Positions 2,736 to 16,605 of a stretch of DNA of 64,000 bases are shown here, in pieces. This stretch comes from Prochlorococcus sp. AG-402-K16. GTDB taxonomy: Bacteria; Cyanobacteriota; Cyanobacteriia; PCC-6307; Cyanobiaceae. How positions within the stretch are numbered: the first letter of the stretch is position 1; each line of letters opens with the position of its first letter. The position numbers were made by a program, and so were the translations under genes. Below the pieces are notes generated by a model. That model did no database searches, was not told the origin of the DNA, and saw only the letters and a list, made by a program, of their open reading frames with translations. Where the stretch lies: positions 62,001-126,000 of the forward strand of contig QCIH01000003.1 in the NCBI GenBank assembly GCA_003216795.1. The letters run 5' to 3'.

Positions 2736-3788
2736 TTGTATTCTCCATTATTTCATCTAATACATTTACCAAAATCAGCAGGAAATAGTATTTGGAGAGA
2801 TTTAATTGATAGTACTGAAAAATACTCTATCAATCCTAATCATGTAATTAAATTAGATACTAGAAATTTTGTAGATGATAAATATTGGAAAAGTTTATAT
2901 TTTCAGAAAAGTCAAGAATATAATAATAATACTAGTTTTATTCCACAAAATTCTCTCTCTATACTTGCTCATAAAGAGGTAAATAAGATACTTCAAGAAT
3001 TTAAGTTTAATCATAAAATTCTTATTCATCACCATAATTCCGGCGCTTTTAGGCTTCCATTAGAAAAAAAAATAAAAAAAAATTATGATAATAGTCAAAC
3101 TTCTAGTCATAAATGGGATCTAAAAGAAAATCCAGAAATTTATGTTTTTACTTTAAGAAATTCATTAGAGAGATCTATATCACAAGTAAAATTTGCATTT
3201 ATGGTTAATAGTATTTTTGAAACTCCTACAACGCCTAAATCAAAAAACTATAAAAATGGACCATATTGGATCGGGGGATTAGATGCTGACGCGATCCCTT
3301 TCGATCGTCGACCTGCTATAGAAATGTTAGCATTGGATTATGAACGTGATATTGAGAATAGATCTGAATATATAGAGTATGCACTGCAAATAATTCCTGA
3401 ATTTGCAACTTATCAATTAAGATATATTTTAACTCTTATAGTTTCAAAAAATCCAACTGAAACAAATGAGATTTTATGGATGAAATCTAATGAGGAAATA
3501 TTAAAACTTTGGAATATCTCTAAAGATTCCATTAAAAATACCTCTAAAATTAATAAGATTGGTGCAATTTATCTTGATGAAAATAAAAAATTTTATTTTT
3601 CTAATTCATTTGAAAAATTTATTTCTGAACATTTAGAAATCAAAAAATTTGAAATTGATCAAGTTTTTAAAGAAACTAAAACAAATTTTCAAGAGGATTT
3701 TATTGAAGTCAATGATGATTTTAGCTTTTATACGAATATGGAAAATAAACTCTTAAAAGATATTTTTGGCTTCCCAAAAAATTTTTAG
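2736..3788 (+). CDS. Sulfotransferase family protein
   Basis: A 350-residue protein starting at TTG. The N-terminus HLPKSAGNSIW (residues 10-20) matches the 5'-phosphosulfate loop of sulfotransferases (H.PKTAGTS). VFTLRNSLERSISQ (about 137-150) matches the 3'-phosphate motif, with Arg141 and Ser147 in the expected places. Such enzymes transfer sulfate from PAPS to a sugar or other acceptor. In this setting, between the LptD-like gene and the island sugar genes, sulfation of surface polysaccharide is a reasonable inference. It is followed by a PhyH-type dioxygenase on the same strand after 115 nt. No transmembrane segment is evident, so a cytosolic or peripheral enzyme is expected. The acceptor is unknown. 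Confidence 0.7.
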   Translation: MYSPLFHLIHLPKSAGNSIWRDLIDSTEKYSINPNHVIKLDTRNFVDDKYWKSLYFQKSQEYNNNTSFIPQNSLSILAHKEVNKILQEFKFNHKILIHHHNSGAFRLPLEKKIKKNYDNSQTSSHKWDLKENPEIYVFTLRNSLERSISQVKFAFMVNSIFETPTTPKSKNYKNGPYWIGGLDADAIPFDRRPAIEMLALDYERDIENRSEYIEYALQIIPEFATYQLRYILTLIVSKNPTETNEILWMKSNEEILKLWNISKDSIKNTSKINKIGAIYLDENKKFYFSNSFEKFISEHLEIKKFEIDQVFKETKTNFQEDFIEVNDDFSFYTNMENKLLKDIFGFPKNF

Positions 3789-3903: not shown

Positions 3904-5211
3904 ATGTCAAACATTTTAGCTAATTCTTATGATTCAAATTCATATGTAGTTCTTAAGAATGTCTTTGAGCCTTGGGAAATAGATGAATTAAACAAAGAAT
4001 ATGACAATTATTATAAATTAAATGGTAGAGATAAATTAGATGAAAAAGCAGTTTCTATTCCTTTAACTGGTGTTGTAGAGTATCACAAGCCAATCGCTGA
4101 AATAATATCTAGAAAAGAAAGATTATTTGATTCTGTAAAAGCAGTTTTAGGAAAAGATAGTCAATTTATAGGTTCTGAAACTATCCAAGTTAAAAATGAT
4201 ACGCATGGTCCTCATAGGGATTATTGTTTTACTCATGACACTTTAAAAGCACTTATTTGCCTTACTGGTAGATACGCAGAAAGTGAAAAAAAATCTTTAC
4301 ATCAAGATCAATTTACTCTGCAATTAGATGGAGCATTTATGATAAATCCTGGATCTCATCATATACAAGGGAGACAATCTTTTTTAAATCAACAAAGAAC
4401 GGAATGGCCAAGTAAAAAACTTTCCCGCTATGAAAAAGTAACTAATACTGTTTTATTAGGCGATGCTAGAACTGATGGTGATTATTATTACCCTAATTTA
4501 GATGCACAAGGGAGATACGCGGGCTTTCAACATATACCTTTTGAAAAAGGTGATGTAATACTATTCTCCACAAGAGCAATTCATGCTCTTTATCCTCAAA
4601 GAAATGACTTTATGATGCATTTTATAGGTCTGCTTTTTGTTGAAGATTTTATGCAGGGCTACTTAAAAAATACAAGTTTGATTGAAAAGCTAAAAGATAT
4701 ATTTAGCCTAAATATAAGGAATGCCTTTTTGGAATATTCAGCTCAACCCGTAATAAGCTCAATAATTTATCAATCTATTCGGCCTCATTTAAAAAACCAT
4801 AAAAAAACAAAAAAACAAATTAAAGTGCAGAAAATAAAAAAAGATATTTTTATAAATGAATCTAATATTAAACTCTGGAACCCTCATCAATGTATTTTAG
4901 ATCGAGAAAATATAAGAACTAAATTTATAAGAGGTAAAGAAGATTTTTATTTTTATAAAAATATTAATCGTTTGAATATTGGATTAAAAAACTATCTCCA
5001 ATATAAAAAAGAAAAGAATTTATATAAATTTATGATTTTTCTAGCTAAAGCAAGGATATTTAATCCACTTTTATTTGTAACTTTTTATATTAAATTGCTA
5101 AGATCTTTTCTATTTTCTAATGATAAAGAAAAATTTATAAAAGTAATCTTTCGAAAAAAACCTTTAATTTTAAAAAAATTAAAAAAATTAAAAAACTTAA
5201 AAAAGTTATAA
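3904..5211 (+). CDS. Phytanoyl-CoA dioxygenase (PhyH)-like Fe(II)/2-oxoglutarate oxygenase
   Basis: A 435-residue protein. Residues 1-250 look like a PhyH fold. The iron-binding H-x-D is in GPHRDYCF (His104, Asp106), the distal His is in STRAIHALYP (His227) and a 2-oxoglutarate Arg is nearby (Arg233). Family members hydroxylate small molecules or sugars, often in polysaccharide and natural-product clusters. The last 170 residues are a Lys-rich extension that I do not recognise. The tail ends in a near-repeat of KKLKKLKNLKKL, encoded by a TTAAAAAA-type tandem repeat, so the C-terminus may vary between strains by slippage. It converges with the epimerase gene on the other strand, 27 nt away. 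The substrate is unknown. Confidence 0.7.
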   Translation: MSNILANSYDSNSYVVLKNVFEPWEIDELNKEYDNYYKLNGRDKLDEKAVSIPLTGVVEYHKPIAEIISRKERLFDSVKAVLGKDSQFIGSETIQVKNDTHGPHRDYCFTHDTLKALICLTGRYAESEKKSLHQDQFTLQLDGAFMINPGSHHIQGRQSFLNQQRTEWPSKKLSRYEKVTNTVLLGDARTDGDYYYPNLDAQGRYAGFQHIPFEKGDVILFSTRAIHALYPQRNDFMMHFIGLLFVEDFMQGYLKNTSLIEKLKDIFSLNIRNAFLEYSAQPVISSIIYQSIRPHLKNHKKTKKQIKVQKIKKDIFINESNIKLWNPHQCILDRENIRTKFIRGKEDFYFYKNINRLNIGLKNYLQYKKEKNLYKFMIFLAKARIFNPLLFVTFYIKLLRSFLFSNDKEKFIKVIFRKKPLILKKLKKLKNLKKL

Positions 5212-5238
5212 AGAATTTTAAAATCTAAATTAATAATT

Positions 5239-6180
5239 TTAGATTTTATCCAAACTACTATATGTTTGCCTGATTTGTTTCTCCATATTAGTTGGCTCAA
5301 TATTAAAAAATTTTAAAAAATTTCTGAATTCTAAATTTTCACAAACATAAATATTTTTTTTAAGGTTTTTATCAATACTATAAATTACCTCAGGTAAATC
5401 AAAAATTTTGCTTATGAATTTTGCTAAATCGATAAGATTAGTGGTATGCGTTGCGGCATTAATTAATTTTGTAGGATAGTTACTTTCTTTTAAAAGCCAA
5501 TAAATGCTTGCTCTCGCAATATCATTGCCATATCCGTAACTCCTAATAACATCGCTTTTTGATTTAATAATTATTGATTCTCTTTTTTTTGCTGATAATA
5601 AAAAATTACCAAAAGCAAAAATATTCGGATCTCTTATAAATTTTCCTGTTAATCCATAAATTCTCATTATCAAACAATTAGAAAGTCTCTGAAAAGTTTG
5701 CTCTTCTTCAAATTTCAGTACTCCATATGGATCCTTGTTTAGCTCTATATTATTTATTTCTTTTTTTTCTATAGATTCTGCCGCACCAGAAGAGATTAAT
5801 ACAGATCTTTTAGTCTCACAAACATTCAAAACATACTCAAGATTTTTGAGTATCTTTTTATTGATCTCAATATAATCATTTATCCCATAAACACAAATTT
5901 TTTCTCTGGTTAAAAAGGCGCAATGAATTACAAAAAAGTCCCTTTTTTTATTTAATAGGTTTTTGATTTCAGAAAGAGGATAAATAGGAATAATAATCTT
6001 ATTTTTATAAGCTGTACTATAAATTTGTCCGGATTTACTACCAAAGGCCATAACTTTTTCATTAAAAATATTGATTGGAATTATTTTCTGAAGTTCATGT
6101 AAAAAGTTTCTACCTACCCATCCGGTAGCACCCGTAAGGATGAAACTAGTTTTGGAATTTTCAATAATACTTTGCTCCAT
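5239..6180 (-). CDS. NAD-dependent sugar epimerase/dehydratase (extended SDR)
   Basis: A 313-residue extended short-chain dehydrogenase. The Rossmann motif TGATGWVG is at residues 16-23, a candidate catalytic Ser lies in SSGAA (130-134) and the YxxxK pair is Tyr152/Lys156 (DPYGVLKFEE). Proteins of this type epimerise, dehydrate or reduce nucleotide-linked sugars. It is the last gene of the seven-gene minus-strand operon, and its start abuts the HAD phosphatase stop. The NeuB-like and HAD genes upstream suggest that it modifies a sugar that becomes part of an ulosonic acid or another glycan residue. The exact reaction cannot be told from sequence alone. Confidence 0.75.
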   Translation of the reverse strand: MEQSIIENSKTSFILTGATGWVGRNFLHELQKIIPINIFNEKVMAFGSKSGQIYSTAYKNKIIIPIYPLSEIKNLLNKKRDFFVIHCAFLTREKICVYGINDYIEINKKILKNLEYVLNVCETKRSVLISSGAAESIEKKEINNIELNKDPYGVLKFEEEQTFQRLSNCLIMRIYGLTGKFIRDPNIFAFGNFLLSAKKRESIIIKSKSDVIRSYGYGNDIARASIYWLLKESNYPTKLINAATHTTNLIDLAKFISKIFDLPEVIYSIDKNLKKNIYVCENLEFRNFLKFFNIEPTNMEKQIRQTYSSLDKI

Positions 6181-6836
6181 TAAATATAATTTTTAAATTC
6201 ATTAAAGGATTCTAGAACTTCAGAATCTTCATTTAAGACAAAAGATTTGCCATAACCATATTTTGCATATACGAATTTAAAAGAATTTCCCAAAGTTGCT
6301 ATATAATCTGACTCAGTATCGCCAGTATAAAACTTTCTTCCTCCATAATTAGAGTCAAGGAAACTTAGGTAATTTGATTTGTTCCTAATGATATTTGTGG
6401 CCCATTTTTGACAATTATCGGTATTTCCGTTAGCAGTAAAAATATCATCAAAGAAATTATAGATTCCGAAATAGATTAGAGCTTTTTTAGATATTTTATA
6501 AGGCTTATTTGTAACGGCAAAAACTTTGTTATTAGAACAATTTCTTATCTGATAAAGTACTTTTTTAACATGTGGGTAGATTTTATAGGATTTATATCCT
6601 AAAGAATCATGATGCAATCTAAAGTCCTTTAAAATACAAAGTTTTTTTTCTTTGTCTAAATTTATTGATAATAATTTTTCTAAATAACTTTCAAGAGGGG
6701 GGCCTATCAAGGTAATTAATATTTTTTTTTTAACTTTACTAAAACTATTTTTTACTAAAGAATAGTTCAAAGATTCATATATTCCATCGAGGCTATCAAA
6801 AATTGTCCCATCAAGATCAAAGCAAAATATTGACAT
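6180..6836 (-). CDS. HAD-family hydrolase (phosphoglycolate-phosphatase-like)
   Basis: A 218-residue HAD phosphatase. Motif I FDLDGTIFDS gives nucleophile Asp7 and acid/base Asp9. Motif II is in FAVTNKPYK and motif IV is GDTESDYIA. The cap insertion between motifs I and II resembles that of Gph-type enzymes. It sits 13 nt downstream of the NeuB-like gene and overlaps the epimerase gene by one base, so all three are probably co-transcribed. In sialic and ulosonic acid pathways a HAD phosphatase removes the phosphate from the 9- or 8-phosphate product, and that is the best inference here. A general sugar-phosphate phosphatase is also possible. Confidence 0.75.
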   Translation of the reverse strand: MSIFCFDLDGTIFDSLDGIYESLNYSLVKNSFSKVKKKILITLIGPPLESYLEKLLSINLDKEKKLCILKDFRLHHDSLGYKSYKIYPHVKKVLYQIRNCSNNKVFAVTNKPYKISKKALIYFGIYNFFDDIFTANGNTDNCQKWATNIIRNKSNYLSFLDSNYGGRKFYTGDTESDYIATLGNSFKFVYAKYGYGKSFVLNEDSEVLESFNEFKNYI

Positions 6837-6849
6837 CTGCTTTTAAATA

Positions 6850-7953
6850 TTATTTGCCTCTTTCAAGAATAAATTTTCTTAAAGACTCATTTTCTCTATA
6901 TGGTCCATCAATATGGTCAATTGTTAATTGATCATCTTGAGAAATATCAACTGTTAAACTTTCTCCATTTATTATTTCTCTACAAGATAGTTGTCCTTTA
7001 TGAAGTGGAATAGCCAAATAAAAGTCTCTATCGAATGTTTTAGATGAAAATACATATCCTTTTTTCAATTCTTTCTTCGCATAAACGCCTCTTACTAATT
7101 CGTCTAGATATCTCCTTTCCTTAACAGATACATTTCTTCTTGAAGTATTAGATCCACCACACATTTCTTTCGATTTATGAAATGCCTTAAACCAAGTATC
7201 AGCCTGATGGGGTAATGAACAATATTTTGAAACTGGTACATTCTCATAATCTATGTCTATATGTCTTTCCCAAGTTCTTGCACCTTTGCCATAGCTAAGA
7301 AGCATTGAATTTTCCCAGTCAGTCATTTCATGAGTTGAGAATCCAATAATATGATTCGGGTATCTTTCTTTTAAATAATCAATTTGATTAAGTTCTAATT
7401 CCGAGTCCTCTGAAGGATATAGAGAAACGCAGTGATTTATTGCTAATGGTATATTTCTATGTTCAAAGAATTTCACACAATCATCTATTGTTTTTTCTGT
7501 TGCCCCTCCAGTAGAGATGATTACAGGTTTATTTAAATCAGCAATTTTTTCGAGTAGAGGCCAAGTAGCTATATCTGAACTTGCGATTTTAATAATTGGC
7601 AAATCAAATGTTCCACACAAACCTACAGAAGCCTCATCAAAAGGTGTTGCCATAGGTATGCATCCACAATTTACTACTTCATCAATAAGTATTTTGAACT
7701 CATCAATAGATAATTTCGTGGCTTCAGTTTTTTTAATGTATCTTGATTCAGTAAATCCTTTAAAAGATGGATGAATAAAGGAATCTACATCTCTAAATTG
7801 TAATTTTATAGCTACTCTTACCGAATTTACTCTTGCGACAGTTGCAAAGTCTCTAACTATTTTTAAACCTCTTTTTAAATTGCCCCAGTGATTATTAGCT
7901 AATTCTAATACGAATAAGTTTTCGAATATTAATCTATCATTTTGGGATACCAT
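6850..7953 (-). CDS. NeuB/SpsE-family ulosonic (sialic-type) acid synthase
   Basis: A 367-residue protein with a NeuB TIM barrel (residues about 10-280) and a C-terminal SAF/antifreeze-like domain (about 285-350). Recognisable motifs are ELANNHWGN (17-25, family E.G.NH.G), TPFDEASV (103-110) and NHCVSLYP (173-180). The two metal-ligand histidines are His208 in GFSTHE and His231 in WERHID. NeuB enzymes condense phosphoenolpyruvate with an amino- or neutral sugar to give a nonulosonic or related acid. The usual SDHT reads STHE and EKHF reads ERHI, so this is a diverged subgroup whose substrate may differ. The HAD phosphatase follows immediately. Confidence 0.75.
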   Translation of the reverse strand: MVSQNDRLIFENLFVLELANNHWGNLKRGLKIVRDFATVARVNSVRVAIKLQFRDVDSFIHPSFKGFTESRYIKKTEATKLSIDEFKILIDEVVNCGCIPMATPFDEASVGLCGTFDLPIIKIASSDIATWPLLEKIADLNKPVIISTGGATEKTIDDCVKFFEHRNIPLAINHCVSLYPSEDSELELNQIDYLKERYPNHIIGFSTHEMTDWENSMLLSYGKGARTWERHIDIDYENVPVSKYCSLPHQADTWFKAFHKSKEMCGGSNTSRRNVSVKERRYLDELVRGVYAKKELKKGYVFSSKTFDRDFYLAIPLHKGQLSCREIINGESLTVDISQDDQLTIDHIDGPYRENESLRKFILERGK

Positions 7954-8056: not shown

Positions 8057-9328
8057 TTATAGTAAGGCACATTCTAAAAATGATTTAGCTAAATCACTAT
8101 CACTTAAATTAAAATTAAAATTATTGGGAAAAATTTCATTTAATAATTTTATTGCTGCTAGCGATATTCCTCCAAGTTGACCTGAAATTATTACTTTTAT
8201 TGGTTTAGAAATTTTACTTTGAGTGCATAATTTATCTAATATAATTCTATATTGATTCAGCCAGTGGCATAATAATTCGCTTGGATTGTAGGTACTGATG
8301 TCTTTCATTGTTATTGTAGGTACATTTGTATATTCGAACTTGTTAACATCAAATCCTGGAAAGAATAGTAAATCCTTTTTTGATTTTTCTATTATTTTGC
8401 GAAATCTTATATAGTCTAAAGCTTTAAGTTCATCAATAAGATCGCTAAAATTATAGATCGTATTAGAGCAATATTCATTTAGTAATCTCCCACATGGGAT
8501 ATGAGATATGACTGATAAGTATCCTAATTTTGGAAAATCTCTATAAAATTCAATTTTTGAAGAAAATGAATTATTAAAAATAATTTGTGATCCAGTTCCC
8601 CAATTAAAAACTATATCAGAATTATTTATGGAAGAAAATGTCGATGCTTGTAAGTCACCTAATTCAGGAAATAATTTAATTTCGTTGACATTTTTGAAAA
8701 ACTTTGATTTTTTTAAAGTAATAAATGATTCATGAAAGGGCTTAGTTTTATCAAAATTTTTATTTAAAAAACTTTCTTTAATACAGGTTGATTCCCATAG
8801 ATATTTCGAAGTTGGTAAGTTGAAACCAAAATAATAATTATATATTAATTGAAGTGGAGTCATTAAACTTTTTACTTTTATTGGTTCTTTACTTATGTTG
8901 TTTTTTATAAACTCAGAAAAAAATGATAGACATTTATTGTCTGAAGATAGTTTATTATTTGGCATTGAAATTAATGATGGAGTACCATTAATAGATTTAA
9001 CTTTAGTTTTATTATATTGATTTGGTAAGTCATTCCAAGAGGAAAAAAAAGGTTCTGAATTCGCAAAAAGTCCTGCTATTCCATGCATCTGACAACTATT
9101 AAGAATCACTAAATCTTTACCCTCTAAATCTAATTCTTTTATAAAGGTTAGAATGATTTTAAAAATATTATCTAACTCTTTTTTTGCATAAAATTCAGGC
9201 TTTTGATTAATATCTTTGATAATTAAAAAACTATCTTTTATTATCTTTCTATTTTCATCCAAAAACCATAATTTAAATCTTGTGAAGCCCCAGTCTATTA
9301 TTAAATAATTAGTTAGTCTCTTGACCAT
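8057..9328 (-). CDS. FGGY-family carbohydrate kinase (sedoheptulokinase/xylulokinase-like)
   Basis: A 423-residue sugar kinase of the FGGY family. Residues 8-21 (LIIDWGFTRFKLW) are the ATP-binding DxG-type loop. CQMHG (79-83) followed by WND (98-100) matches the QMHG...WxD substrate motif of ketose kinases. ELGDLQAS (222-229) carries the likely catalytic Asp225, and NWGTGSQI (242-249) is the second phosphate loop. The start overlaps the end of the AroB-like cyclase gene by 16 nt, which implies coupled expression. If the substrate is sedoheptulose, the product would feed a sedoheptulose-7-phosphate cyclase directly. That link is inference; xylulose or another ketose is possible. Confidence 0.65.
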   Translation of the reverse strand: MVKRLTNYLIIDWGFTRFKLWFLDENRKIIKDSFLIIKDINQKPEFYAKKELDNIFKIILTFIKELDLEGKDLVILNSCQMHGIAGLFANSEPFFSSWNDLPNQYNKTKVKSINGTPSLISMPNNKLSSDNKCLSFFSEFIKNNISKEPIKVKSLMTPLQLIYNYYFGFNLPTSKYLWESTCIKESFLNKNFDKTKPFHESFITLKKSKFFKNVNEIKLFPELGDLQASTFSSINNSDIVFNWGTGSQIIFNNSFSSKIEFYRDFPKLGYLSVISHIPCGRLLNEYCSNTIYNFSDLIDELKALDYIRFRKIIEKSKKDLLFFPGFDVNKFEYTNVPTITMKDISTYNPSELLCHWLNQYRIILDKLCTQSKISKPIKVIISGQLGGISLAAIKLLNEIFPNNFNFNLSDSDLAKSFLECALL

Positions 9329-10494
9329 TTTATAAATTCTTTTATTGATGATTCAATTGAATTTTTAATTTCATGACTTTTACTATCAAAACTATATTTA
9401 TAAAAAATCATTTCCCCAGGTTGTTTAATCAGTATTAGTGGTACACTTTTCCCATCACCTTTTTTATCGTATTTAAACTGGTCGATTATATCCAAAGGAT
9501 CTATCTTATTTAAATATAGGAAATCATTTTCAATATCCTTAAGTGTACTTCTTATTGCGTTTGAAATCTGATTATATAATTCTAAACTCATAAATTTTTT
9601 ATTAAATGAAAATGTATTTGCAATATGAATTCCTAAGAGAACTCCTAATCCATGAGGAATTTTAAAATTAACTAATTTTTCAATTGCATGCCCAAAAGTA
9701 TGCCCATAATTCATGGATCTTCTAACATCTTTTTCATACTCATCAAAATCAACAACTGATTTTTTAATGGATAATGATAATCTTAGTGCTGATGTGTATT
9801 TATCTTTGTCTAAATTTTTTGGATTTATAATGTAAGGTAGTATTTCTAAATAAGTATTTAAAGCTTTTTGAGAAGCAGTGAGACATAATCTAAGCATTTC
9901 TGATAAACCGGCTCTGTGGTCTATTGCAGGCATTGTTTCGATAGCAAAAATTGGAATTATTACCTCTTTTGGTGCTGAAAAAAGTCCCAGTATATTTTTA
10001 GCAAGTACTGTATTAACTGCACATTTTGCTCCAACGCAGGAATCTAATTGTCCTAATGTGGTTGTGGGCAAATAAATAAAAGGTTGTCCTCTTCTAAAAA
10101 GAGCGCATGCACAAGCAGATATATCCTGAACGATGCCCCCACCAATTGCAATTACTTTTGAACCTTTAGAGATATTATTTTCTATAAATAAATTAATAAG
10201 ATCAAGTACTGTGTTCATATTTTTGTTGGCTTCGATAGCCTCAAAACTGAAAATTTTATCTTTATTTTTTTCTGGAAGCTTATAAATTACTTCTACTTTT
10301 TGATCAATTATTATAAAATCTGAGGTCTCAAGAATTTCTAGATAATCACTATAGTTATTGATTGGTGAGACTGAATATTTCCTTGGAAATGAATTTATGA
10401 GTATAGGGAAGTTTTCTAGTTCAAAAGTTAAATTATTCTCATTAATTTTGAAATTCTCTTTTTCGTTTTCTTTAATTAATAAACTTTTTTTCAT
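9313..10494 (-). CDS. AroB-like sugar-phosphate cyclase (3-dehydroquinate synthase superfamily)
   Basis: A 393-residue protein with the NAD- and Zn-binding fold of 3-dehydroquinate synthase. GGGIVQD is at 118-124, LPTTTLGQLDSCVGAKCAVN at 142-161 and NYGHTFGHAIE at 262-272. The predicted zinc ligands are Glu199, His265 and His281. It is unlikely to be the housekeeping aroB: the second His motif reads PHGLG instead of the usual HGE, and the gene sits inside a sugar operon. Relatives in this superfamily make cyclitols (2-epi-5-epi-valiolone and others) from sedoheptulose 7-phosphate, or amino-DHQ. It overlaps the SDR gene upstream by 4 nt and the FGGY kinase downstream by 16 nt. Confidence 0.75.
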   Translation of the reverse strand: MKKSLLIKENEKENFKINENNLTFELENFPILINSFPRKYSVSPINNYSDYLEILETSDFIIIDQKVEVIYKLPEKNKDKIFSFEAIEANKNMNTVLDLINLFIENNISKGSKVIAIGGGIVQDISACACALFRRGQPFIYLPTTTLGQLDSCVGAKCAVNTVLAKNILGLFSAPKEVIIPIFAIETMPAIDHRAGLSEMLRLCLTASQKALNTYLEILPYIINPKNLDKDKYTSALRLSLSIKKSVVDFDEYEKDVRRSMNYGHTFGHAIEKLVNFKIPHGLGVLLGIHIANTFSFNKKFMSLELYNQISNAIRSTLKDIENDFLYLNKIDPLDIIDQFKYDKKGDGKSVPLILIKQPGEMIFYKYSFDSKSHEIKNSIESSIKEFIKWSRD

Positions 10495-11180
10495 GGTTCA
10501 AAAATACCACCACTGATCATACCACCATCTATTGTGATAAATGTACCAGTAAAATATTTATTAGGATTGCAAACATTCAAAAGTATAGAATCACTAAGTT
10601 CTGAGGGTAAGCCAAATCTTTTTTTTGCTATTCTTTGGCTTAATTTTTCTTGCATTTCGATACTTAAATTTTGATCAGAAAGTTTAGTTTTAAAAAAACC
10701 AGGCCTATATCCAATTATTTGAGTTTCTGGATATTCTAATGATAAACATTTTACAACTCCTTCAAGAGCGTGTTTTGAAACAACGTATGGTAAACGAGTA
10801 TGACGTCCGTAAATCCCGTATAAAGAAGAAATTACATGAACTCCAATAAGTGGATTTTTGAGATTTTTTTGAAGAATATCTACAATCGATAAAAAGGATA
10901 TACAGTTAACTGATATATGATTATTTAGACTTGCTAAGACATTTTGCGTAATTTCATTTTTAATTATTAAAGGCTTATTGACTCCTGCTGCGTAAAGTAT
11001 TTGGGTAGGTTGAAAATTAATTATTTTTTTTATTATTTCAGAACTAGGTAAATTACTCGCTAAATCCCATTCTTCTCTATTAACTTGAAAAATTAAAATA
11101 TTATTATCCTTGACTTTTTCTAATAATGGTTGAATTAAATCGCTTTTTGAACCAATTATTAATAGCTTTATTTCACTCAT
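10491..11180 (-). CDS. Short-chain dehydrogenase/reductase
   Basis: A 229-residue classical SDR. The catalytic Tyr132/Lys136 are in LPYVVSKHALE and the catalytic Ser is in VHVISSLYG (118-119). YAAGVNKP (63-70) corresponds to the NNAG motif. The N-terminal glycine motif is degenerate (LIIGSKSDLI), so cofactor binding may differ. The C-terminus has FITIDGGM, typical of SDRs. It lies between the TPP-dependent enzyme (26 nt upstream) and the AroB-like cyclase (4-nt overlap), so it probably oxidises or reduces an intermediate of their pathway. A role like YerF, reducing the branch ketone made by a TPP enzyme, is one possibility; a cyclitol dehydrogenase is another. Confidence 0.7.
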   Translation of the reverse strand: MSEIKLLIIGSKSDLIQPLLEKVKDNNILIFQVNREEWDLASNLPSSEIIKKIINFQPTQILYAAGVNKPLIIKNEITQNVLASLNNHISVNCISFLSIVDILQKNLKNPLIGVHVISSLYGIYGRHTRLPYVVSKHALEGVVKCLSLEYPETQIIGYRPGFFKTKLSDQNLSIEMQEKLSQRIAKKRFGLPSELSDSILLNVCNPNKYFTGTFITIDGGMISGGIFEP

Positions 11181-11206
11181 GATTTTTTAAAAATTTTGAT
11201 TATATT

Positions 11207-13063
11207 TTAATTTATTTTGAAGGCCTTATTTTTTATTTCTGTCATTCTTTCATCAGAGATAAAAGGTGCCATATCCTCTAATTCTGAAGTCGACATTGAT
11301 CCATCATCTAACTTTTTACTTGAAAGTTTAGGTTCAAAGGCTTGCTCGAGATTTAAGATTATTTCATGAATTATTGGACCTTCAATTTTTAGAGTTTCTA
11401 GAATGTCATTCTTGAGTGAATTTTCATTATCGCTTCTTTTATAACTTAATGCGAAACCTTTTGCTAAATTTTCAAAATCTGGGAATGGTAGACCTGACTC
11501 TATGCCACATCCGACTGGATTATCTGGGAAATAATTATGCTGTGTTTGTCTAATAGAGTGATAACCTTGGTTATTTAATAAAAATATTTTTATTGGAAGT
11601 TTTTTATAGCCTATTATTGCAAGTTCTTGCAAGTTCATCATTATTGATCCATCACCAGCAATACATATAATTTCCTCTTCTTCAGCATAAAAAGCTCCAA
11701 TTGCAGCGGGAATTTCATATCCCATTGATGCACATCCAGAATTATGGAAAAGTCTTTGTCCTTTTTTGATTATTGCTGCTTGAAATGTTACTACACAAGC
11801 TGTCCCATCAGCACATACGATTTTTCGGTTTTCAGGTAATTCTTTAAAAAGACAATCAATTAGAAAGTAAGGATTTATTAATTCGTTTTTTATTTTTGTG
11901 CAAGGTAAAGTGGCTGGAAATTCTTCAAGTAAATCTTTATTGAAAGCAATCCATTTCAACCAATTATCTTTTGTATTTGAACAATTTGTTATATTTATTT
12001 TATTTTTAAGTGTTAAGCTTAATCTCTTGAAAAAGTTTTTAATATCACCATTAACTTTTAAATCAGTATTTAGAGTTGGTTTTTCTAATTCATCTAAGTC
12101 TATATCTATATGACATCTCCAAGCATTTTTTGCGAATGAATTCCAATTGAAACTTACCTGTCTAATGTTTAATCTGCAGCCAATGATGATAACGCAATCT
12201 GATAATTGAACAGCAAAATTGCCTGCTCTATTACCTACTGAGCCAGGCCTGCCAGAATAACAATAGTGATCATCCCATAGAAGGTCGTTGTTGTTCCATC
12301 CAGTTACTGTTGCAATTGGCCAATCATCAATAAAATCAAGAAATTCCCCATAAGAATCACTTAGCCTAACTCCATTACCAACATATAAAACTGGTCTACT
12401 TGATGAAAGCAATTTTTCAGCAATAGTTTCTATATCTTTATCGGATATCTTTTTTTCTTCTTTTTTTGAAAAAGTTTCATTAAGATTAGTTTTATTTCTT
12501 AAAGGTACATTAACTAAATCTAGGAATTCGTTTCCTAATGGAGTCGCTTGAACGTCAATGGGGACATCTATCCATACAGGACCTTTTCTTCCTGTATTAG
12601 CGAGTAGAAATAACTCATCAATTAAATCAGCTACTGAATAAGGATCTTCTAATAGAATTGACTTCTTACAAATTTTTTCTGTCATACTTACTATATCAAC
12701 TTCTTGGTCACCAAGCTGCCTTAGATTAGGTCTGCCAGAATTTTTAACTAAAGTTTCTCTTTTAGCTTGACCTGAAACAATAATCATAGGAATTGAATCT
12801 ACGAAAGCACCAAATACCCCATTTATTGCATTTATTGATCCAGGCCCAGCAGTAACATTAACTATTGCTGGTTTTAATTTTAATCTTGAATAACTTTCAG
12901 CAGAAATCGAACAAGATTGTTCATGATGTAAAAAATAGACATTATCTCTGAAAATTGAACCAAAACTATCATTTAAGTGCATAGAAGCACCTCCAGTTAC
13001 CATAAAAACTTTTTCGCATCCAAGAAATTTCAACCTTCTAGCAATAAAATCTGATACCCTCAT
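11207..13063 (-). CDS. Thiamine-diphosphate-dependent enzyme, acetolactate-synthase-like
   Basis: A 618-residue protein with the three-domain layout of acetolactate synthase. The N-terminal Pyr domain carries the catalytic Glu48 (HHEQSCSISAE), followed by a central domain. The C-terminal PP domain has the ThDP/Mg motif GDGS (470-473), ending in LLNN about 25 residues later. It is the first gene of the minus-strand operon and diverges from rfbFGH, whose product is CDP-4-keto-3,6-dideoxyglucose. That nucleotide sugar is the substrate of YerE, an acetolactate-synthase-like enzyme that adds a two-carbon branch in yersiniose synthesis. A YerE-like role is therefore plausible, though acetolactate synthesis or action on a cyclitol is not excluded. 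Confidence 0.75.
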   Translation of the reverse strand: MRVSDFIARRLKFLGCEKVFMVTGGASMHLNDSFGSIFRDNVYFLHHEQSCSISAESYSRLKLKPAIVNVTAGPGSINAINGVFGAFVDSIPMIIVSGQAKRETLVKNSGRPNLRQLGDQEVDIVSMTEKICKKSILLEDPYSVADLIDELFLLANTGRKGPVWIDVPIDVQATPLGNEFLDLVNVPLRNKTNLNETFSKKEEKKISDKDIETIAEKLLSSSRPVLYVGNGVRLSDSYGEFLDFIDDWPIATVTGWNNNDLLWDDHYCYSGRPGSVGNRAGNFAVQLSDCVIIIGCRLNIRQVSFNWNSFAKNAWRCHIDIDLDELEKPTLNTDLKVNGDIKNFFKRLSLTLKNKINITNCSNTKDNWLKWIAFNKDLLEEFPATLPCTKIKNELINPYFLIDCLFKELPENRKIVCADGTACVVTFQAAIIKKGQRLFHNSGCASMGYEIPAAIGAFYAEEEEIICIAGDGSIMMNLQELAIIGYKKLPIKIFLLNNQGYHSIRQTQHNYFPDNPVGCGIESGLPFPDFENLAKGFALSYKRSDNENSLKNDILETLKIEGPIIHEIILNLEQAFEPKLSSKKLDDGSMSTSELEDMAPFISDERMTEIKNKAFKIN

Positions 13064-13229: not shown

Positions 13230-14000
13230 ATGAAAGCTGTAATACTTGCTGGTGGTTTTGGAACGAGACTTTCTGAAGAAACATCAATCAAGCCAAAACC
13301 AATGGTAGAGATTGGAAATAAGCCCATACTTTGGCATATTTTGAAAATTTATAGTCATTACGGAATTAATGATTTTGTTATTTGTTGTGGGTACAAAGGT
13401 TACATGATTAAGGAATTCTTTTCGAATTATTTTTTATATTCCTCTGACATAACATTTAATATGAAAGATAATAAAATGGAAGTCCATTCTAGTGTTGCAG
13501 AGCCATGGAATATCACACTTGTTGACACAGGCGAAAAAACAATGACTGGCGGAAGATTAAAAAGAATTGCCAAATATATAAATAATGAAACTTTTTGTTT
13601 TACTTATGGTGATGGTGTTGCTGATGTAAATATTACAGAACTAATTAGTTTCCACAAAAAAAATAATTCAAAAGCAACTCTTACTGCAGTGCAACCTCCA
13701 GGAAGATTTGGATCTCTCGAGTTTGAAAGAGGTAAGGTACTCTCTTTCCAAGAAAAGCCAAAAGGTGATGGGAATTGGATTAACGGAGGATTTTTTGTCT
13801 TAGAGCCAGAAGTTTTTGACTATATTGAGGGAGATCAATCTGTATGGGAACAATATCCTTTAAAGAAATTAGCTGAGAATGGAGAATTAGCTGCTTACCA
13901 TCACAATGGATTTTGGCAACCAATGGATACTTTGAAAGATAAAATGTACTTAGATGAATTATGGAAAGATTCAAAATCACCCTGGAAATGCTGGAGTTGA
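13230..14000 (+). CDS. rfbF: Glucose-1-phosphate cytidylyltransferase
   Basis: A 256-residue nucleotidyltransferase. The N-terminus has the signature KAVILAGGFGTRLSEETS with the lysine-rich KPKPMVEIG, then TYGDGVADVNI (metal-binding region) and GGFFVLEPEVFDYI. Length and motifs match RfbF/DdhA, which joins glucose 1-phosphate and CTP to CDP-glucose in the cytosol. It starts the rfbF-rfbG-rfbH operon; rfbG begins 3 nt after its stop. This opens the CDP-3,6-dideoxyhexose branch and is separate from the dTDP-rhamnose enzymes elsewhere in the window. Confidence 0.92.
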   Translation: MKAVILAGGFGTRLSEETSIKPKPMVEIGNKPILWHILKIYSHYGINDFVICCGYKGYMIKEFFSNYFLYSSDITFNMKDNKMEVHSSVAEPWNITLVDTGEKTMTGGRLKRIAKYINNETFCFTYGDGVADVNITELISFHKKNNSKATLTAVQPPGRFGSLEFERGKVLSFQEKPKGDGNWINGGFFVLEPEVFDYIEGDQSVWEQYPLKKLAENGELAAYHHNGFWQPMDTLKDKMYLDELWKDSKSPWKCWS

Positions 14001-14003
14001 AAA

Positions 14004-15095
14004 ATGAATGTACAAAAAAGAAAAGTTCCAAACAAAAGATTCTGGGAAAATAAAAAAGTTCTTATAACTGGTCATACTGGATTTAAAGGCAGCTGGTTAA
14101 GTTTATGGCTTTTGCAAATGGGGTGCGATGTTATTGGAATAGCTTTAGAACCAGAAAATGAAAAAAATTTATTTGATCTTTTGAATCTAAAAGATCAAAT
14201 AAAACATTATATCTGTGATATAAGAAATAAAAAAGCTTTTGGGGAAATAATAAAAAAACATAAACCTGATATTATTTTTCATTTAGCGGCTCAACCTTTG
14301 GTAATAACTTCATATAAAAAACCTCTTGAAACATGGCAGGTAAATGTAATGGGGACTGTAAATCTTCTTGATGAAATTTCTTATTTGGATAAAAAGTGCA
14401 GTGTTGTTTTTATAACTACAGACAAGGTTTATGAAAATAATGAATGGACTTATGGATATAGAGAAATTGATAAATTAGGTGGTTTAGACCCATATAGTAG
14501 TAGCAAAGCTGCTTGTGAATTAGCCATTCATAGTTGGAGAGAAAGTTTTTATAGTTCAAATCAATACCAAAAAACAAATTTTTCAATCGCATCAGCTAGA
14601 GCTGGAAATGTTATTGGTGGTGGAGATTGGTCAGAAAATAGAATTGTGCCAGATGTAATAAGATCACTTGAAAAAAATAATGAAATCCATATAAGGAATC
14701 CATCCTCCACAAGACCATGGCAGCATGTTCTTGAACCACTTTCAGGTTATATTTTACTAGCAGAAAGATTACACTCTGATGAAAATGATATATTTTGTTC
14801 TCCATTTAACTTTGGACCTGAATTAGAAGCAAATAAATCAGTTTTAGAGTTGGTGCAAGAATGTCTTAAACATTGGGAAGGAGATTACACTATCCAAAAT
14901 AATAATGAGAAATTACATGAAGCGGGTAAGCTTAATTTAGTAATTGATAAAGCTTATAATACTCTTGATTGGAAACCAAGGTGGGATTTTTGCAAGACAA
15001 TAGATATAACTATCAATTGGTATAAAAATTTTACATTAAAAAAGAAATCTCCCCTAGAAAGTTGTCTTAATGATCTATCTTTGTATATAGATTAA
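14004..15095 (+). CDS. rfbG: CDP-glucose 4,6-dehydratase
   Basis: A 363-residue extended SDR. VLITGHTGFKGSWLSLWL is the family-specific NAD-binding motif (HTGFKGSW is typical of RfbG). FHLAAQPLV follows, then a catalytic ITTDKVY segment and YSSSKAACE with the YxxxK pair. The C-terminal ARAGNVIGGGDWSENRIVPD stretch is typical of this family. It converts CDP-glucose to CDP-4-keto-6-deoxyglucose. It lies 3 nt after rfbF and 10 nt before rfbH, so the three genes form one transcription unit making the precursor of a 3,6-dideoxy sugar. Confidence 0.92.
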   Translation: MNVQKRKVPNKRFWENKKVLITGHTGFKGSWLSLWLLQMGCDVIGIALEPENEKNLFDLLNLKDQIKHYICDIRNKKAFGEIIKKHKPDIIFHLAAQPLVITSYKKPLETWQVNVMGTVNLLDEISYLDKKCSVVFITTDKVYENNEWTYGYREIDKLGGLDPYSSSKAACELAIHSWRESFYSSNQYQKTNFSIASARAGNVIGGGDWSENRIVPDVIRSLEKNNEIHIRNPSSTRPWQHVLEPLSGYILLAERLHSDENDIFCSPFNFGPELEANKSVLELVQECLKHWEGDYTIQNNNEKLHEAGKLNLVIDKAYNTLDWKPRWDFCKTIDITINWYKNFTLKKKSPLESCLNDLSLYID

Positions 15096-15105
15096 AAATA
15101 ACTAA

Positions 15106-16605
15106 TTGGAAAATTTAAAAGAAATAAAAAGAAAAATTTTAGATCTGACTAGAGAATATTCCAGACAGGCACATTCTTCTTTTAGACCTGGTTCTGATGA
15201 ATTAAGGTCAGAATGGGAAATGGGAAATCCTATTCCATATGCTGGACGGGTTTTTACTGAAGATGAAGTAGAGGCAGCAATTTCTACTACATTAGATTTC
15301 TGGTTAACGCTTGGGAATGAAGGAAGTGCCATGGAGAAAGAACTAGGCGATTTTTTGGGGGCAAAAAAGTGCTTATTAGTTAACTCTGGATCTAGCGCAA
15401 ATTTAATAGCAATTTCTACTTTGACTTCTCATAAATTACCTTATAAAAAAAGAATAAACGTTGGGGACGAAGTAATAACTGTTGCAGCAGGATTTCCAAC
15501 TACTGTTGCTCCAATTATTCAAGTGGGAGCAGTTCCTGTTTTTATCGACGCAGATCCTACCACTGGGAATGCAAAATGTGAACAACTAGAAAGTGCCTAC
15601 AAACCTGGCAAAACAAAAGCAGTTATGATGGCACATGCTTTAGGCAATCCCTTTGAATTACTTAAAACAATCGAATTTTGTAAAAAGTATGATCTTTGGT
15701 TGATTGAAGATAATTGTGATGCCCTTGGATGTAGTTATACAATGCCTAAACATATTGCTAATAAATTTGGTTTCTTTCAAAACAGTCCTGGGCTAGATGA
15801 GGGTCCTAATAATATTGTCAGATGGACAGGCACTTGGGGAGATATTAGTACTCAAAGTTTCTACCCACCACATCATTTAACTATGGGCGAGGGCGGAGCA
15901 GTTAATATTATTAATAGTACTAAATTGGCAGTAATAGCTGAGAGTTTTAGAGATTGGGGCAGGGATTGTTGGTGCCCAAGTGGAATAGATAATACTTGTA
16001 AAAAAAGATTTGATTGGCAACTTGGAGATTTACCTAAGGGTTATGATCATAAATACACATATAGTCATCTGGGCTTTAACCTTAAACCATTAGATATTCA
16101 GGCATCTATTGGGAGAATTCAACTTAAAAGGCTTCCTGAGTTCATCGAAACTAGAAAACAAAATTGGGATTATTTACGTTCTGGACTGAAAATGAGTGAA
16201 GATTTTTTAGATTTTGCGTTACCTACACATGCAACTAGTTGGGATGAAGAGAAAGGCTTTACTTGGGATGATTCTGGATGTAGAACAGAATGCTCATGGT
16301 TTGGCTTTAAGATTTCTGTAAAGCAAAATGGCTCTTTTACTAGAACTGATTTAGCTAAAATATTAGATATAAATAAGATAGGTAATAGAATGCTTTTTGG
16401 AGGGAACTTATTAAGACAGCCAGCTTTCGTAGAACTTAAAAAGAACAGATCTGATGCATTTAGGTCAGCAGTAGATACAGAAGGTTCAGATAAAATTATG
16501 GAAGATACACTCTTCCTTGGAACTTACCCAGGCTTAACTAAAGAAATGATGGATTTTGAAATTCATACAATTAATAATTTTGTTTTTTCTGATAAAAAAT
16601 CTTAA
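15106..16605 (+). CDS. rfbH: CDP-4-dehydro-6-deoxyglucose 3-dehydratase (E1, PMP/[2Fe-2S] enzyme)
   Basis: A 499-residue aminotransferase-fold enzyme with a TTG start. In YPPHHLTMGEGG (254-264) a His replaces the usual PLP-binding Lys, the hallmark of E1. Cys288, Cys290 and Cys298 (CWCPSGIDNTC spacing C-x-C-x7-C) plus Cys204 match the E1 [2Fe-2S] ligands. E1 removes the 3-OH of CDP-4-keto-6-deoxyglucose, with a reductase partner (E3), giving CDP-4-keto-3,6-dideoxyglucose. The distance from Cys204 to Cys288 is about 26 residues longer than the spacing I recall for the family, because of an insertion near residues 214-241. No E3-type reductase is seen beside it. Confidence 0.9.
   Translation: MENLKEIKRKILDLTREYSRQAHSSFRPGSDELRSEWEMGNPIPYAGRVFTEDEVEAAISTTLDFWLTLGNEGSAMEKELGDFLGAKKCLLVNSGSSANLIAISTLTSHKLPYKKRINVGDEVITVAAGFPTTVAPIIQVGAVPVFIDADPTTGNAKCEQLESAYKPGKTKAVMMAHALGNPFELLKTIEFCKKYDLWLIEDNCDALGCSYTMPKHIANKFGFFQNSPGLDEGPNNIVRWTGTWGDISTQSFYPPHHLTMGEGGAVNIINSTKLAVIAESFRDWGRDCWCPSGIDNTCKKRFDWQLGDLPKGYDHKYTYSHLGFNLKPLDIQASIGRIQLKRLPEFIETRKQNWDYLRSGLKMSEDFLDFALPTHATSWDEEKGFTWDDSGCRTECSWFGFKISVKQNGSFTRTDLAKILDINKIGNRMLFGGNLLRQPAFVELKKNRSDAFRSAVDTEGSDKIMEDTLFLGTYPGLTKEMMDFEIHTINNFVFSDKKS

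Follow-up and report, generated by a model that had tools for sequence, protein, structure and literature searches.

A kinase-coupled AroB-like gene in a Prochlorococcus surface island and its possible part in the synthesis of a branched dideoxysugar

What could a homologue of 3-dehydroquinate (DHQ) synthase be doing beside a sugar kinase among the surface-polysaccharide genes of a marine picocyanobacterium? The question is raised by a stretch of 64,000 nucleotides (the window) of Prochlorococcus sp. AG-402-K16, taken from contig C3 of a draft assembly of 1.67 Mb that is 92.5% complete. At positions 8057-13063 it carries genes for an FGGY-type kinase, an AroB-like protein, a short-chain dehydrogenase (SDR) and a thiamine diphosphate (ThDP)-dependent enzyme. 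A first-pass annotation had interpreted these genes as a candidate cyclitol pathway, by way of sedoheptulose 7-phosphate as in known C7-cyclitol synthesis. The comparisons described here favour another route, to which we assign a probability of about 0.6: as judged from sequence and gene context, the locus would make a 3,6-dideoxyhexose that is branched at C4 and activated with cytidine diphosphate (CDP), for use in a surface polysaccharide, and would do so by phosphorylation of a precursor followed by AroB-like elimination of the phosphate.

The genes themselves are as first described. The SDR and AroB-like genes overlap by 4 nt and the AroB-like and FGGY genes by 16 nt, all four genes have an ATG start and an intact frame, the kinase carries the QMHG and WND motifs, and the AroB-like protein has the zinc ligands E199, H265 and H281, with HGLG at H281-G282-L283 in place of the HGE of aroB. 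The functional unit, however, extends beyond 8057-13063. The block runs on without a large gap into genes for a NeuB-like synthase, a HAD phosphatase and an NAD-dependent epimerase, and rfbFGH (13230-16605) adjoins it on the opposite strand, so that the unit comprises rfbFGH and the ThDP enzyme, SDR, AroB-like, FGGY, NeuB-like, HAD and epimerase genes. The order from ThDP enzyme to epimerase is repeated in the closest named relative, Prochlorococcus sp. AG-355-A09 (G191, loci L072/L073; 43-89% identity; L080 has the same proteins), and in locus L081, where ten genes from rfbF through the epimerase stand in a single row; L081 and genome G768 appear to be one genome. This repetition indicates that the arrangement is not due to chance and, with other loci, bears out the coupling of kinase and cyclase proposed earlier, which is strongly conserved. 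The surface-glycan setting is likewise supported, by rfb genes that score above their cut-offs and by other open reading frames of the window that resemble, by eye, rml and ATP-binding cassette transporter genes. Absent from the first-pass annotation was the NeuB-like synthase, which we infer to be the partner that explains the kinase, and the rfbFGH genes and the ThDP enzyme, which had been left unlinked, together point to a 4-C-branched deoxysugar.

To judge from profile scores and phylogeny, the AroB-like protein is a second, divergent paralogue and not the housekeeping aroB product. It scores 265.5 bits with TIGR04425 (cut-off 400) and 213 bits with the aroB model (cut-off 305), in both cases under the cut-off. 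In a 55-row maximum-likelihood tree it falls in a clade with TIGR04425-type proteins (support 100/99), separate from the DHQ synthases (99/95) and from the 2-epi-5-epi-valiolone synthases (EEVS) and desmethyl-4-deoxygadusol synthases (DDGS; 100/99). The zinc ligands are invariant in a 10-member alignment of AroB-like proteins, and the catalytic positions of DHQ synthase (DHQS) are retained: E199, K244, R258, N262, H265, H269, H281 and K345. The change of HGE to HGL was considered as a mark of new function and rejected, since many phage homologues keep the Glu (HGEAV). Among the 266 genomes of the genus that were searched, matches far above ordinary aroB were found in the window's own genome and G191 only.

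Evidence on function comes from the distribution of the module, which other cyanobacteria and uncultured phages also carry, over 63 loci: 20 in genomes with a member of the AroB-like clade, and 43 on viral contigs (IMG/VR) with both ThDP enzyme and AroB-like genes. The viral loci were found with a 10-row AroB-like alignment, whereas the window protein as single query gave no viral match; six viral contigs with ThDP enzyme matches of 15-25 bits were discarded as spurious, and searches of plasmid and cultured-phage collections did not yield the module. Some of the viral contigs carry phage replication genes, such as those for a DnaB-like helicase (L142) and for UvsX-like and SbcC-like proteins (L137). 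At the genome loci an SDR gene is always present (20/20), the ThDP gene lies beside the AroB-like gene in 19/20 and rfbF/rfbH is nearby in 15/20; several of the loci without ThDP enzyme or rfb genes are contig ends. Six genome loci have NeuB and FGGY without HpcH, and the other 14 have an HpcH/HpaI aldolase without NeuB and FGGY. The viral loci are divided similarly, with 20 having NeuB and FGGY, 18 HpcH, four NeuB only and one all three, which brings the HpcH variant without NeuB or FGGY to 32/63 loci. An FGGY gene was always accompanied by NeuB (27/27 loci; Fisher p=6e-14, relatedness ignored). A kinase profile matched 2/400 genomes of the family (G768 and the window's own) and, in the species collection, L080 and L081.

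Phylogenies of the individual enzymes indicate which genes move together. In trees of the genome loci, the kinase-type AroB-like proteins form one clade (97/92), as do the kinase-type SDRs (99/99), but a single clade of kinase-type ThDP enzymes is rejected (approximately unbiased test, p=1.8e-12). When the type of keto-acid source is mapped on 50 loci, viral ones included, the AroB-like tree needs one change and the ThDP tree at least four; these are quick trees with SH-aLRT support only. Since AroB-like protein and SDR follow the swap and the ThDP enzyme does not, the swapping cassette consists of keto-acid source, AroB-like gene and SDR, while the ThDP enzyme reassorts.

Kinase homologues adjoining AroB-like genes in other loci reach 45-67 bits with Pfam FGGY (cut-off 28.8), and homologues above the cut-off include G639 (E=1.7e-18) and those in L122, L124, L134, L137 and L148; the closest curated model is XylB, far under its cut-off. 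G224-D225 and G244-T-G-S-Q248 are invariant in an alignment of six kinases, and we take these to be the catalytic base region and a loop of FGGY kinases. Many phage kinases of the cassette are only about 305-330 residues long (L133:9013-9963, L142:5936-6883 and similar), and two that were tested had no Pfam match; they represent a compact form of FGGY-like kinase. The NeuB-like protein, of which the nearest solved structure is the SpsE-like 3g8r (203 bits), is 89% identical to its counterpart in G191 and 57-77% identical to those in L081, L091 and L124. It stays under the cut-off for N-acetylneuraminate synthase (TIGR03569, 112 vs 400), and H208 and H231, presumably the metal-binding His pair of NeuB, are invariant in five homologues. 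The ThDP enzyme is closer to structure 8rph (269 bits) than to acetolactate synthase (197 bits), and 5ahk (192 bits), which we take to be PpYerE, is not closer than the latter. The alignment with 8rph includes NCDGG and a common C-terminal tail; a CDG motif occurs in JanthE (PMC12247030), which suggests that 8rph is JanthE and that the window enzyme is JanthE-like.

A pathway can be proposed from these assignments. By established family chemistry, RfbF, RfbG and RfbH would provide CDP-3,6-dideoxy-4-keto-glucose as acceptor. The NeuB-like enzyme would form a 3-deoxy-2-ulosonic acid, as yet without phosphate, by condensation of phosphoenolpyruvate (PEP) and an aldose, and the kinase would phosphorylate the terminal hydroxyl of this acid to give a substrate resembling 3-deoxy-D-arabino-heptulosonate 7-phosphate (DAHP). 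HpcH aldolases, from pyruvate, and NeuB synthases, from PEP, both give 3-deoxy-2-keto acids; a phosphorylated product, however, arises only where an aldolase takes a sugar phosphate as its substrate, so that the NeuB product would need a kinase. This need is the simplest reading of the NeuB+FGGY/HpcH swap: in the HpcH variant a single aldolase, using pyruvate and an already phosphorylated aldehyde, would cover the work of both synthase and kinase. The AroB-like enzyme would then act in the manner of DHQ synthase, by oxidation, elimination of the phosphate installed by the kinase, and reduction, and the SDR would reduce the ketone of its product. The YerE-like ThDP enzyme would, from its family and context, decarboxylate the 2-keto acid and transfer the remaining acyl group to the CDP-sugar at its C4 ketone, and the epimerase/dehydratase-like protein is a candidate reductase of the branch ketone, in a role similar to that of YerF.

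Two orders of events can be envisaged, which we regard as about equally likely. If the ThDP enzyme acts first, the AroB-like protein would close a ring on the chain bound to the CDP-sugar, resulting in a polyhydroxycyclohexyl branch, as AroB chemistry predicts. Alternatively, the substrate of the AroB-like enzyme would be the free keto acid and no ring would form, which fits the conserved DHQS-like substrate residues, and the SDR would yield a 3,7-dideoxy-2-keto acid and hence an open branch like that of caryophyllose. Both orders agree with the trees, since the ThDP enzyme would meet only the constant keto-acid end. Caryophyllose has a 1,3,4,5-tetrahydroxyhexyl branch (PMC5706390), and this requires a 3,7-dideoxy-2-keto acid as donor; according to a retrosynthesis of our own, the second order would give exactly this branch. 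A more far-reaching version, which we put forward only tentatively, is a widespread, phage-borne route to surface sugars with carbocyclic branches, in which the YerE-like enzyme joins CDP-3,6-dideoxy-4-ketohexose to a phosphorylated chain of the 3-deoxy-2-keto-acid type, the AroB-like enzyme closes the ring on the nucleotide sugar, and FGGY+NeuB and HpcH are interchangeable suppliers.

Several points weigh against the proposal of phosphorylation followed by elimination. The window kinase scores 17.8 bits with Pfam FGGY, under the cut-off of 28.8. Because the sequences are related, the Fisher p-values are inflated; on the AroB-like tree a single event may account for the swap, and linkage could explain part of the co-segregation. 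One viral locus (L163:3416-9885) holds an HpcH aldolase as well as NeuB and FGGY, with the ThDP enzyme and AroB-like genes, and four others (L156, L165, L171 and L173) have ThDP enzyme, NeuB, SDR and AroB-like genes with no recognizable kinase in the stretch examined, although a kinase may lie further away or have escaped detection. The window type of AroB-like protein has Arg202 in the column that we take to be Lys197 of DHQS; this Arg is found in three picocyanobacterial sequences, while most other clade members keep the Lys. As for the two orders of events, ring closure on the CDP-sugar is hard to reconcile with conserved residues that are presumably carboxylate ligands, and the open-chain order needs a non-cyclizing enzyme of the AroB family, for which we know of no precedent.

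That the AroB-like gene is simply the DHQ synthase of this genome, captured in an island, would agree with its being the sole PF01761 match in the assembly, in which no canonical aroB was found. This reading is nevertheless refuted by a remnant at a contig edge. Over the canonical aroB neighbourhood of G191, contig C40 is 97% identical as far as position 4294 of L092, which falls within aroB (4250-5341), and there C40 ends; its first bases encode YDDVEDSLFLKFFS and a stop, identical to the C-terminus of the G191 aroB product, so that the final 14 codons of the canonical gene are present at this edge. The absence of the housekeeping gene is therefore an assembly gap, and G191 has both genes. 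The occurrence of a standard aroB besides the cyclase, and a position of the cyclase outside the true DHQ synthases, were checks named by the first-pass annotation, and both turned out in its favour; with the aroB score given above, the probability that the gene is the housekeeping enzyme is close to nil. Its C7-cyclitol route, with a kinase forming sedoheptulose 7-phosphate for a cyclase of the EEVS, DDGS or 2-epi-valiolone synthase (EVS) type, fared less well. The tight coupling in gene order of an FGGY kinase to an AroB homologue and the QMHG/WND motif are in its favour, but the AroB-like clade is separate from EEVS (4p53), DDGS (5tpr) and cyanobacterial DDGS-like proteins, and the kinase tracks NeuB. 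The C7-cyclitol fingerprint A/D-x-GH-x-x-S-P is absent, with MNYGHTFGH in the window as compared to AYGHTWSP or DFGHSFSP. The DHQS-type N262 and H269 (NYGHTFGHAIE) are present where EEVS and DDGS have A/D and P, and K244 is retained at the column of DHQS Lys250, where these enzymes have lost the Lys. The columns that separate DHQS from C7-cyclitol synthases presumably contact the carboxylate and phosphate of the substrate, as in DHQS structures. Sedoheptulose 7-phosphate is thus an unlikely substrate and the route as a whole very improbable. A cyclitol moiety could still occur, as a branch on the 4-C-branched deoxysugar.

A rather more serious competitor, although we consider it unlikely, is the formation of a free cyclitol acid. 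The AroB-like enzyme would cyclize a DAHP-like acid, the SDR would give a quinate-like compound, and the ThDP enzyme would separately use pyruvate to build a branch like that of yersiniose; the two products would meet later or be unrelated. This would account for the retained DHQS catalytic positions, as well as for the co-segregation of AroB-like protein, SDR and keto-acid source without the ThDP enzyme. It leaves unexplained, however, why the ThDP gene is present in 19/20 genome loci and why many viral contigs have it placed between the NeuB and SDR genes.

Comparison with known systems helps to place the branched-dideoxysugar pathway. Proteins of family TIGR04425, described as AroB-related putative sugar phosphate phospholyases (cyclizing), share the clade and the ThDP/SDR/rfb neighbourhood of the window protein, but their partner is an HpcH aldolase instead of NeuB and kinase. 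DHQ synthase is alike in fold family, zinc ligands and fingerprint residues, but differs in clade and in the active-site Lys column, and the window gene sits next to a kinase gene within a surface island. EEVS and DDGS belong to the same sugar phosphate cyclase superfamily and differ in fingerprint and clade. The ebo operon is another gene cluster that includes an AroB homologue other than the housekeeping enzyme, and NF004852 presumably covers its AroB-like protein. It was rejected as a match because of its different AroB subfamily (NF004852 122 here vs a cut-off of 333), and its neighbours also differ (PMC5133447). Bradyrhizose was set aside as product, since AroB chemistry would not lead to its ring pattern. 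The pathways of yersiniose, erwiniose, caryophyllose and gastriose resemble the window locus in combining an rfbFGH-type CDP-3,6-dideoxy-4-ketohexose with a YerE-like ThDP carboligase, and the branch of caryophyllose, with six carbons, is as long as would be expected (PMC5706390); the window locus differs in adding NeuB, FGGY (or HpcH), AroB-like and SDR proteins for processing the acyl unit. YerE catalyzes acyl transfer to CDP-3,6-dideoxy-4-keto-glucose, and ErwE prefers hydroxylated, longer 2-keto acids (PMC12247030). This review of ketone-accepting ThDP enzymes mentions neither a DHQ synthase homologue nor a carbocycle, and an in silico survey of >200 YerE-like clusters that it cites may already list the module (PMC12247030). 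The genes of the window locus are collected in Table 1.

Table 1 Genes of the proposed functional unit, with positions in the window
Feature	Position	Strand	Evidence
NAD-dependent epimerase/dehydratase-like	5239..6180	-	Pfam Epimerase E=3.7e-9; 51% in G191 at matching position; homologues in G578, G1264 loci
HAD-superfamily phosphatase	6180..6836	-	Pfam HAD_2 E=3.4e-19; matching position in G191, L081
NeuB/SpsE-like synthase	6850..7953	-	Pfam NeuB E=3.2e-36
FGGY-type sugar kinase	8057..9328	-	QMHG/WND motifs; FGGY_N E=0.0026 (under cut-off)
AroB-like putative phospholyase	9313..10494	-	Pfam DHQ_synthase E=1.3e-27; tree
Short-chain dehydrogenase (SDR)	10491..11180	-	Pfam adh_short_C2 E=4.9e-12
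ThDP carboligase, YerE/JanthE-like	11207..13063	-	Closest solved structure 8rph; phrog_11199
rfbF, glucose-1-phosphate cytidylyltransferase	13230..14000	+	TIGR02623 467 bits, above cut-off
rfbG, CDP-glucose 4,6-dehydratase	14004..15095	+	TIGR02622 502 bits, above cut-off
rfbH, CDP-4-keto-6-deoxyglucose 3-dehydrase	15106..16605	+	PRK15407 619 bits, above cut-off

Beside the operon, the window encodes a protein without Pfam match (2736-3788) and a PhyH-type dioxygenase (3904-5211), both possible modifiers of surface glycan. The surface-sugar island is bordered by an LptD-like gene, named by eye (470-2572), and homologues of it border differing islands in two relatives (L072:6634-8724 and L076:1-1857), which suggests a recurrent insertion site.

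Related genes were also encountered in other arrangements. A long-branch member of the AroB-like clade in G539 (L074:8121-10617) is accompanied by an SDR, with no ThDP enzyme, HpcH, NeuB or kinase found nearby, and a further, truncated viral contig (L211) has the ThDP enzyme and AroB-like genes only. In a second arrangement without ThDP enzyme, an SDR and a CTP_transf_3 cytidylyltransferase stand with an AroB-like gene (L076:6170-8769, L077:9362-12014 and L157:4416-8996); two cyanobacterial AroB-like copies of this type sit beside DHQS in the tree, and the arrangement may represent a separate pathway to a product activated with cytidine monophosphate. A plasmid of Novosphingobium humi (L130:10034-12804) has an rfbF-rfbG-HpcH row with no ThDP enzyme or AroB-like gene nearby, and this HpcH family may also serve another CDP-sugar setting.

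If the proposed pathway is correct, it would give a function to the uncharacterized AroB family TIGR04425 and add a route of phosphorylation followed by elimination to the YerE-type pathways for branched sugars, with a hint of how caryophyllose-type or new carbocyclic sugars are assembled. Since kinase plus NeuB and HpcH appear interchangeable, the pathway is open to direct in vitro testing with few enzymes. The presence of the module on contigs of uncultivated phages, furthermore, raises the question of why phages encode the synthesis of such an unusual branched sugar.

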